NCBI GenBank assembly: GCA_903882875.1
Contig: CAIRYQ010000031.1
Coordinates: forward strand, 1 to 45,108
Direction: 5' to 3'
From: an uncultured Spartobacteria bacterium
GTDB taxonomy: Bacteria; Verrucomicrobiota; Verrucomicrobiia; Chthoniobacterales; Chthoniobacteraceae
DNA: 45,108 bases
The translations under genes and the position numbers were made by a program. Below the pieces are notes generated by a model that had not been told where the DNA came from, made no database searches, and worked only from the letters and a program-made list of their open reading frames with translations. Position 1 is the stretch's first letter, and every line of letters begins with the position of its first letter. Positions 44,071-45,108 of this stretch are shown one piece after another.

Positions 44071-44303
44071 GGGATCGAAGGAAAAGTCACGATGGCGGGG
44101 AAGTTGCAAGCACGGCTGGCGGGCGCCGTGAGATGGCGCAATCGCATCAAAGAGAGGCCGTCCTTCCTGCGTGGGACGCCGCGCGGGCGGAGGACAGTGG
44201 CTCCATTTGAATGAGACGGGATGCATTCTCGTTGTCTCGATCATGCTCCTGCTCTCGAAAACCCGGCTGACAGAGCAGGGGAGGATCAAAACCAAGAGAC
44301 AAG
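44071..44303. other. intergenic, no feature recognised
   Basis: Stretch between the esterase start and the palindrome cluster. It must contain the esterase promoter; no clear motif seen. Confidence 0.3.
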
Positions 44304-44501
44304 CCGGTGGTGGAGCGACGAAGGAGCGGGAACCACCGGATCCCGTCCACCCGAGGCGATGCGCCCCGGAGGGTGCGCTGGAAATCCCGCCGCAGATTCC
44401 GGCACCCCATCCGGGGTGCAACGTCGTGCGGATGCGAACCGGTGGTTGCGCTCGCGTTGCTCGCTGCACCACCGGCTACAATCCGTGACGCCTCCGGCGT
44501 C
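44304..44501. repeat. cluster of REP-like palindromes
   Basis: At least three unrelated palindromes in 200 bases: CCGGTGGT...ACCACCGG at 44304-44339; GCACCCC/GGGGTGC with a 4-base loop at 44402-44419; CCGGTGGT...ACCACCGG again at 44439-44475; GACGCC/GGCGTC with a 3-base loop at 44487-44501. The first and third share the same arms and enclose different centres. They look like repetitive extragenic palindromes (REP/BIME type) mobilised by REP-associated tyrosine transposases elsewhere in a genome; no transposase is in the window. Confidence 0.65.
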
Positions 44502-44517
44502 CGAGGCAGGCCGGACG

Positions 44518-44940
44518 CTATTTCTCCGCCGCCGGGGCCGGGGGCTCGATGCGGGGGAAGAGGGGGACGGGTTTGCCGAGGACGTGGCCATCCCGCAGGC
44601 CGCCCCAGACGGCATCCGCGAGACGGAAACGCGTGTCCTTGCCGAGTTCACCGCACTCAGCCCGGAGTTCATTGAACACCGCCCGGAGTTCGTCGAACAC
44701 AGCCCGGAGTTCGTTGAACACAGCCCGGAGTTCGTCGAACACGGCCCGGAGTTCGTCGAACACAGCCCGGAGTTCGTCGAACACCGCCCGGAGTTTGTCG
44801 AACACCGCCCGGAGTTCGTCGAACACAGCCCGGAGTTTGTCGAACACCGCCCGGAGTTCGTCGAACACGGCCCGGAGTTTGTCGAACACCGCCCGGAGTT
44901 CGTTGAACACGGCCCGGAGTTTGTCGAACACATGGCCCAC
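44518..44940 (-). CDS. heptad-repeat (coiled-coil) ORF joined to a MetRS-like C-terminal tail
   Basis: A 140-residue reading frame with GTG start at 44940 (or GTG at 44931 region); an in-frame stop lies about 30 bases upstream. Residues 4-94 are thirteen copies of a seven-residue unit, V-F-(D/N)-(E/K)-L-R-A, which would form a long amphipathic coiled coil; a decayed fourteenth unit (E-C-G-E-L-G-K) follows. The last 40 residues, including 'RLADAVWGGLRDGHVLG' and 'PVPLFPRIEPP', resemble the extreme C-terminus of methionyl-tRNA synthetase, where P-L-F-P-R-I-E marks the end of the anticodon-binding domain. The rest of a synthetase is absent. No good ribosome-binding site is visible, so expression is uncertain. 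Confidence 0.5.
   Translation of the reverse strand: MGHVFDKLRAVFNELRAVFDKLRAVFDELRAVFDKLRAVFDELRAVFDKLRAVFDELRAVFDELRAVFDELRAVFNELRAVFDELRAVFNELRAECGELGKDTRFRLADAVWGGLRDGHVLGKPVPLFPRIEPPAPAAEK
44661..44933. repeat. 13-copy 21-bp tandem repeat
   Basis: Thirteen uninterrupted units of 21 bases (plus-strand start CCCGGAGTTCGTCGAACAC plus two bases). Differences are single substitutions at three positions only: the C/T at unit base 10, the region around bases 11-12, and base 20 (C, A or G). The unit length is a multiple of three, so all frames stay open. In the minus frame used above, base 20 changes are synonymous (Ala codon) and the others give D/N and E/K. Confidence 0.95.
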
Positions 44941-44956
44941 TTTTGCGGCAAAAGTG
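44938..44956. promoter_or_regulatory. perfect palindrome at the start of the heptad-repeat ORF
   Basis: CACTTTTGCGGCAAAAGTG: two 9-base arms around one central base, overlapping the proposed GTG start. It could be a protein-binding operator or a transcript stem; nothing further supports either. Confidence 0.4.
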
Positions 44957-45019
44957 CCCGAAAACCCTGCTTATCCGGTTGCCTGACACAGACAGGCTCG
45001 GCGAGGGCTTCGAGAATAG

Positions 45020-45039
45020 CCCAGCACTTCAGTGCTGGG
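45020..45039. repeat. REP-like palindrome (AGCACT type)
   Basis: CCCAGCACT (45020-45028) and AGTGCTGGG (45031-45039), a 9-bp perfect palindrome with a 2-base loop, unlike the palindromes at 44.3-44.5 kb. Confidence 0.65.
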
Positions 45040-45063
45040 TAAAAGATGGTGAAAACGAGCAAA

Positions 45064-45108
45064 GTCCCGCCAGGGACGGCAGAACGCTCCTTCCGTCCCT
45101 GCCGGGAC
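45064..45108. repeat. long inverted repeat at the window end
   Basis: GTCCCGCCAGGGACGG (45064-45079) and CCGTCCCTGCCGGGAC (45093-45108) pair over 16 bases with one mismatch, loop of 13. Each arm is itself a small palindrome (GTCCC...GGGAC). It runs to the last base, so it may extend beyond the window. Confidence 0.7.

Follow-up and report, generated by a model that had tools for sequence, protein, structure and literature searches.

A second metG 3' end, a 21-bp tandem array and a MITE at one locus of an uncultured Spartobacteria bacterium

The right-hand end of the window (the whole stretch of DNA analysed, 45,108 bp, which is the entire contig C31 of the draft genome G000 of an uncultured Spartobacteria bacterium) carries a tandem array of 21-bp units. 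On one side the array is joined to a second copy of the 3' end of metG, the gene for methionyl-tRNA synthetase (MetRS), and on the other it is followed by a short perfect hairpin and by a MITE, inside which the contig ends (Table 1). The original prediction, made from the letters of the window, had read array and tail as one minus-strand minigene of heptad repeats fused to a MetRS-like tail and bracketed by palindromes. It had offered three origins for this arrangement: a coiled-coil module that slippage expanded on a duplicate of the metG tail, a wrecked metG, or a new regulatory or structural minigene.

Table 1. Positions of the features at the right-hand end of the window
Feature	Position	Strand	Remarks
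Imperfect inverted repeat, beyond the metG copy as seen from the array	44302..44477		71.5% over 179 aligned positions
Frame of 140 codons with GTG start, proposed earlier	44518..44940	-	Translation not supported
Second copy of metG 3' end, including stop codon	44518..44644	-	93% to own metG, 92% to G004 metG
Degenerate 14th unit (ECGELGK)	44638..44658	-	At junction with metG copy
Array, 13 units of 21 bp	44659..44931	-	VFDELRA, VFDKLRA and VFNELRA in the proposed frame
Leader hairpin, perfect 19-bp palindrome	44938..44956		CACTTTTGC-C-GCAAAAGTG on minus strand
8-bp target-site duplication, CCGAAAAC	44958..44965		Same 8 bp beside metG at the end of C123
Part of MITE of ~238 bp, terminal repeat GCTTATCCGGTTGCCTGACACAG	44969..45108		94% to reference positions 99-238

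The array is as regular as was first described: its 13 near-identical units are each exactly 21 bp long and run from 44931 to 44659 on the minus strand, and its score of 438 is the top of three TRF rows in the window. Across the 13 units compared, 17 of the 21 positions are invariant. The D/N and E/K sites and the third base of the alanine codon vary as predicted (10 G and 3 A; 9 G and 4 A; and 5 G, 5 T and 3 C, respectively), and one additional third base is variable (12 C, 1 T). Nearly identical units set head to tail, in a small number of variants that partly alternate, as expected if units were added two at a time, are also what is seen in bacterial minisatellites (VNTRs), and the array is most likely a minisatellite that has grown by slippage or unequal exchange. 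It differs from these, however, in having a hairpin leader before it, and the same is true of a diverged array elsewhere in the genome.

This second array lies on contig C6. It is a paralogue of the window array, with 69% identity over 239 bp, and the hairpins that precede the two arrays are related to one another. On the far side of the C6 array one unit ends GACTCCGGGCT and one begins GTGTTCGGCGAACTCCGG, both of them near to the window unit. A gapped pattern for the leader hairpin, built from the window and C6 leaders so that matches to those two are no test, found nothing beyond them in the 10 genomes of the genus. The gene neighbouring the C6 array is found, besides in its own genome, only in G004 among the 10, where a contig end cuts it. 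It is conceivable, if improbable, that hairpin and 21-bp units together constitute a new kind of small repeat that disperses by inserting at the ends of genes without loss of their function, the array growing out of the hairpin and the metG site and C6 representing two stages.

Is the proposed frame translated? The 140 codons do stay open across array and tail, with an in-frame stop upstream, at 44973, as had been claimed, and the tail is free of stops and frameshifts and has few non-silent changes. By direct reading, phenylalanine and leucine stand at positions suiting a coiled coil. HMM searches with the frame returned, at E values up to 1, 68 families from Pfam and 30 from NCBIfam; among the best 25 of the 68, HALZ, NepR and Ykof exceeded their Pfam cut-offs, and among the best 25 of the 30 no NCBIfam family did so. 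All of this could be expected if selection maintained a protein in which a heptad (coiled-coil) module is joined to a MetRS tail, but the matched families are mutually unrelated, and we take them to be matches to heptads or to composition. The substitutions, which had been thought to favour a translated minus frame, do not single it out. Four of the six frames are open across all 13 units, the remaining two having stops inside some units only, and two of the four variable sites alter a residue in the proposed frame. In the matching frame of the C6 paralogue, moreover, 9 of the 14 units printed contain proline, so that the heptads have not been kept there as protein. No promoter-like site was found in 44100-45108, no ribosome-binding site for the frame is visible on inspection, and a search for the array pattern (up to two mismatches) came up empty in all nine other genomes of the genus. 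A translated minigene is thus very unlikely, the array most probably being repeat DNA that is not translated.

The units could alternatively act as DNA or RNA, as quasi-palindromic 15-mers (GTGTTCG-A-CGAACTC) that are bound by a protein or fold into hairpins. The window unit pairs at six of seven positions around its centre, the leader is a perfect palindrome, and the last window unit can be turned into a C6 unit by exchanging its outer pair and altering a single other base, all of which would be consistent with such a role. However, 10% of shuffled units pair equally well, the C6 unit does no better than chance (0.41), and the RNA folds are ordinary, with z scores of -0.87 and -1.74 (equalled by 15 and 6 of 100 shuffles, respectively). 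We consider a function of this kind unlikely. The LexA box of Verrucomicrobia is TGTTC-N4-GAACA; the spacer of the unit is N3, not N4, and this reading of it was dropped.

For the tail, the resemblance to MetRS that had been noticed earlier is upheld at the DNA level. Positions 44539-44644 of the window (106 bp) share 93.4% identity with a stretch near the 3' end of the same genome's intact metG, within the last 118 bp of that gene; against the metG of G004, from the same genus, the identity is 92% over 127 bp, stop codon included. Profile searches with the 43-residue tail found no family, MetRS or other, in Pfam or NCBIfam, so that its kinship to metG rests on DNA identity. The intact gene, of 580 codons, is on contig C123, and the genome has one metG-family match above cut-off. 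We therefore reject the idea that the window holds the wreck of metG itself; the intact gene is probably next door. One search with the metG end gave a single match in each of the nine other genomes of the genus and two in G000. In a comparison of the metG on C123 with those of G001, G003, G004, G007 and G009 (the G001 and G004 sequences being partial), a region ahead of the conserved C-terminus, ~80 residues long in the intact gene, shows very little similarity from species to species of the one genus, whereas its flanks are well conserved.

The copy terminates in EPPAPAAEK before its stop codon and the metG of G004 in EPPAPTAEK; the intact gene terminates in EAPKAE and the metG of G007 in EAPIATP. 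Both kinds of ending thus occur in the genus, implying that the termini of the two ends, which diverge abruptly after ATCGAG, do not tell which end is older. Over 105 bp the intact gene and the copy differ at 7 positions, the intact gene and G004 at 8, and the copy and G004 at 7; the two ends of this one genome have diverged to about the extent seen between two species. Silent differences make up five of the seven between the two ends (P = 0.023 under random substitution) and two of the three changes on the copy's own branch (P = 0.20).

These comparisons bear on one account of the second end, a plain duplication of the metG 3' end within the genome, in which the minisatellite grew in the spacer and the gene end was not replaced. 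In its favour, the third base of codon 16 is G in both the copy and the intact gene, against C in G004, G007 and G005 (G003 also has G), and no recombinase or integrase was found between the two metG ends by direct reading. Against it stands the abrupt parting of the termini. In addition, an unconstrained copy of the age implied by the distances would be expected, by inference rather than from simulation, to show more changes than the three on its branch, and mostly non-silent ones. We regard a plain duplication as possible but rather unlikely; on balance, two ends that each stayed functional before being united explain the data better than a single duplicate evolving neutrally.

Palindromes had been predicted on both sides of array and tail, and both are present, the left one as the imperfect inverted repeat of Table 1 and the right one as part of a multicopy MITE. 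A search of the genome for this MITE, in which 40 of 59 candidates were scored, yielded at least 73 rows, a count that includes both strands and partial matches. Four full-length copies (at least 92% identity) are internal to contigs; an exact 8-bp target duplication flanks three of these intact copies, while the copy on C101 agrees at only 2 of 8 positions. It is thus a short, multicopy element of ~238 bp with terminal inverted repeats and target duplication, as MITEs are, the C101 copy being without the duplication. The inner palindrome (window 45004-45039) matches the Rfam family Acido-Lenti-1 with 30 bits and an E value of 0.00034, below the gathering score of 37 bits, and among seven related loci there was no match at gathering score. 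The entry for this motif in PMC2864571 records it for Acidobacteria and Lentisphaerae; it may form part of such repeats. Shorter elements of about 135 bp have the same terminal repeats and other interiors (C103:18373-18521 of G000, and L015, L016, L018 and L020 of G004), so that these ends belong to more than one kind of MITE.

The contig that carries the intact metG, C123, ends within the same MITE, which starts there after 35 bp past the metG stop codon. C123 carries reference positions 1-116 and C31 positions 99-238, with an exact overlap of 18 bp. This overlap does not decide the join, because C123 and C24 end in identical MITE sequence, and the overlap of each is 18 bp with C31 and 36 bp with C50. 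As for the target duplication, the 8 bp that flank the MITE end are identical on C31 and C123, and among 12 pairings of MITE ends (four ends by three, each side including one internal truncated copy) all eight positions match only for C31-C123 and C69-C24, the next best pairing matching at six. From the identical duplication we infer that C31 and C123 are likely to be neighbours across the MITE. On the metG strand the likely order would then be metG, MITE, hairpin, array and second metG end, which puts the two metG ends, by arithmetic, ~0.7 kb apart. In the parallel pair, the ends of C69 and C24 share the exact 8-bp duplication GAAAAACG across the MITE, and these contigs are probably joinable despite one mismatch in 111 bp.

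An assembly or binning artefact, in which array and tail came from another strain or from misjoined reads, might be suspected in a draft genome of 129 contigs with 1.92% contamination, since assemblies fail at repeats. Yet the same MITE occurs in many contigs of the genome, a related array lies on C6, and the duplicated 8 bp at the MITE link C31 to the contig of metG. We consider such an artefact very unlikely.

What, then, could have left a second metG end beyond an intact gene? We tentatively favour, at somewhat less than an even chance, the explanation that it is a displaced gene end left by an insertion, of the icdC type, and not a new gene. DNA would have inserted at the 3' end of metG, either bringing a replacement 3' end with it or recombining one from a relative, so that metG was kept whole and its former last ~42 codons were pushed downstream as a fragment. 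The hairpin and the 21-bp minisatellite, grown by slippage or unequal exchange, would have come to lie between the two ends, and a MITE may later have jumped in beside the hairpin, where the assembly broke. The agent may have been a decayed element, or related DNA that recombined through homology on one side and illegitimately on the other.

The model for such an event is the prophage e14 in icd of E. coli K-12, for which the account of the insertion in PMC11148124 describes icdC as a 165-bp copy showing 12 exchanges and two replacements, both conservative; PMC6379469 contains a similar account of icd/icdC and e14. There, as here, an intact gene has a full 3' end. A second 3' end lies downstream beyond the insert at icd and probably does so at metG, and the differences, mostly silent at icd, may be so at metG as well (12 exchanges in 165 bp for icdC; 7 differences in 105 bp here, in a copy of ~127 bp). 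In contrast to icd, the metG site is without prophage or integrase, the two metG ends would be neighbours across a contig gap, and either end could be the native one. By direct reading, the DNA between them amounts to ~0.36 kb plus the MITE, comprising spacer, MITE, leader and array, and thus lacks the recombinase gene that an insert of this type should carry. The partial direct repeat of the metG 3' end that such an insertion should leave is seen, with the proviso that same strand and closeness hold only if C31 follows C123. The interpretation of the second end as displaced is weakened by G007, whose ending, EAPIATP, shares the start of the EAPKAE of the intact gene. Synteny is uninformative on the history of the gene end, since the relatives examined (seven stretches, one of only 2.1 kb) do not share the genes that follow metG here.

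The first of the three origins proposed in the original prediction, in which slippage extended a repeat on a duplicate metG tail, therefore comes close. The present analysis adds the likely site behind the intact metG, the MITE that split the assembly, and the possibility of a displaced gene end. An apparent 'new gene' in raw sequence can arise when ordinary processes coincide at one site, here a minisatellite, a MITE and a presumably displaced gene end. If the gene-end explanation is true, metG would be a site at which DNA inserts and ends are exchanged while the essential enzyme is retained. Matching target duplications, moreover, offer a means of recognising neighbouring contigs in a draft genome.

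Finally, similar arrays were sought more widely. No earlier description was found among the literature matches listed. A scan of genome contigs with the array pattern gave 296 matches, of which four passed tblastn; these four loci were rejected, two being gammaproteobacterial arrays with 24-bp units and two being enzyme genes of SAR202/Dehalococcoidia, presumably aminotransferases. Among viral contigs there were 15 pattern matches, none confirmed, and plasmids and phages gave no array match. Across 38 genomes, with at most the best 18 candidates scored per genome, three were matched: the genome itself, G004 through MITE ends only, and G024 inside a gene that we take to be UvrA-like. Among 212 other genomes of the order the pattern was found in G025 only, as a weak, intergenic, three-copy array of 21-bp units. 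This array (positions 1491-1553 of locus L032) comes right after the end of a gene and reads VFEPLRR-like in one frame.
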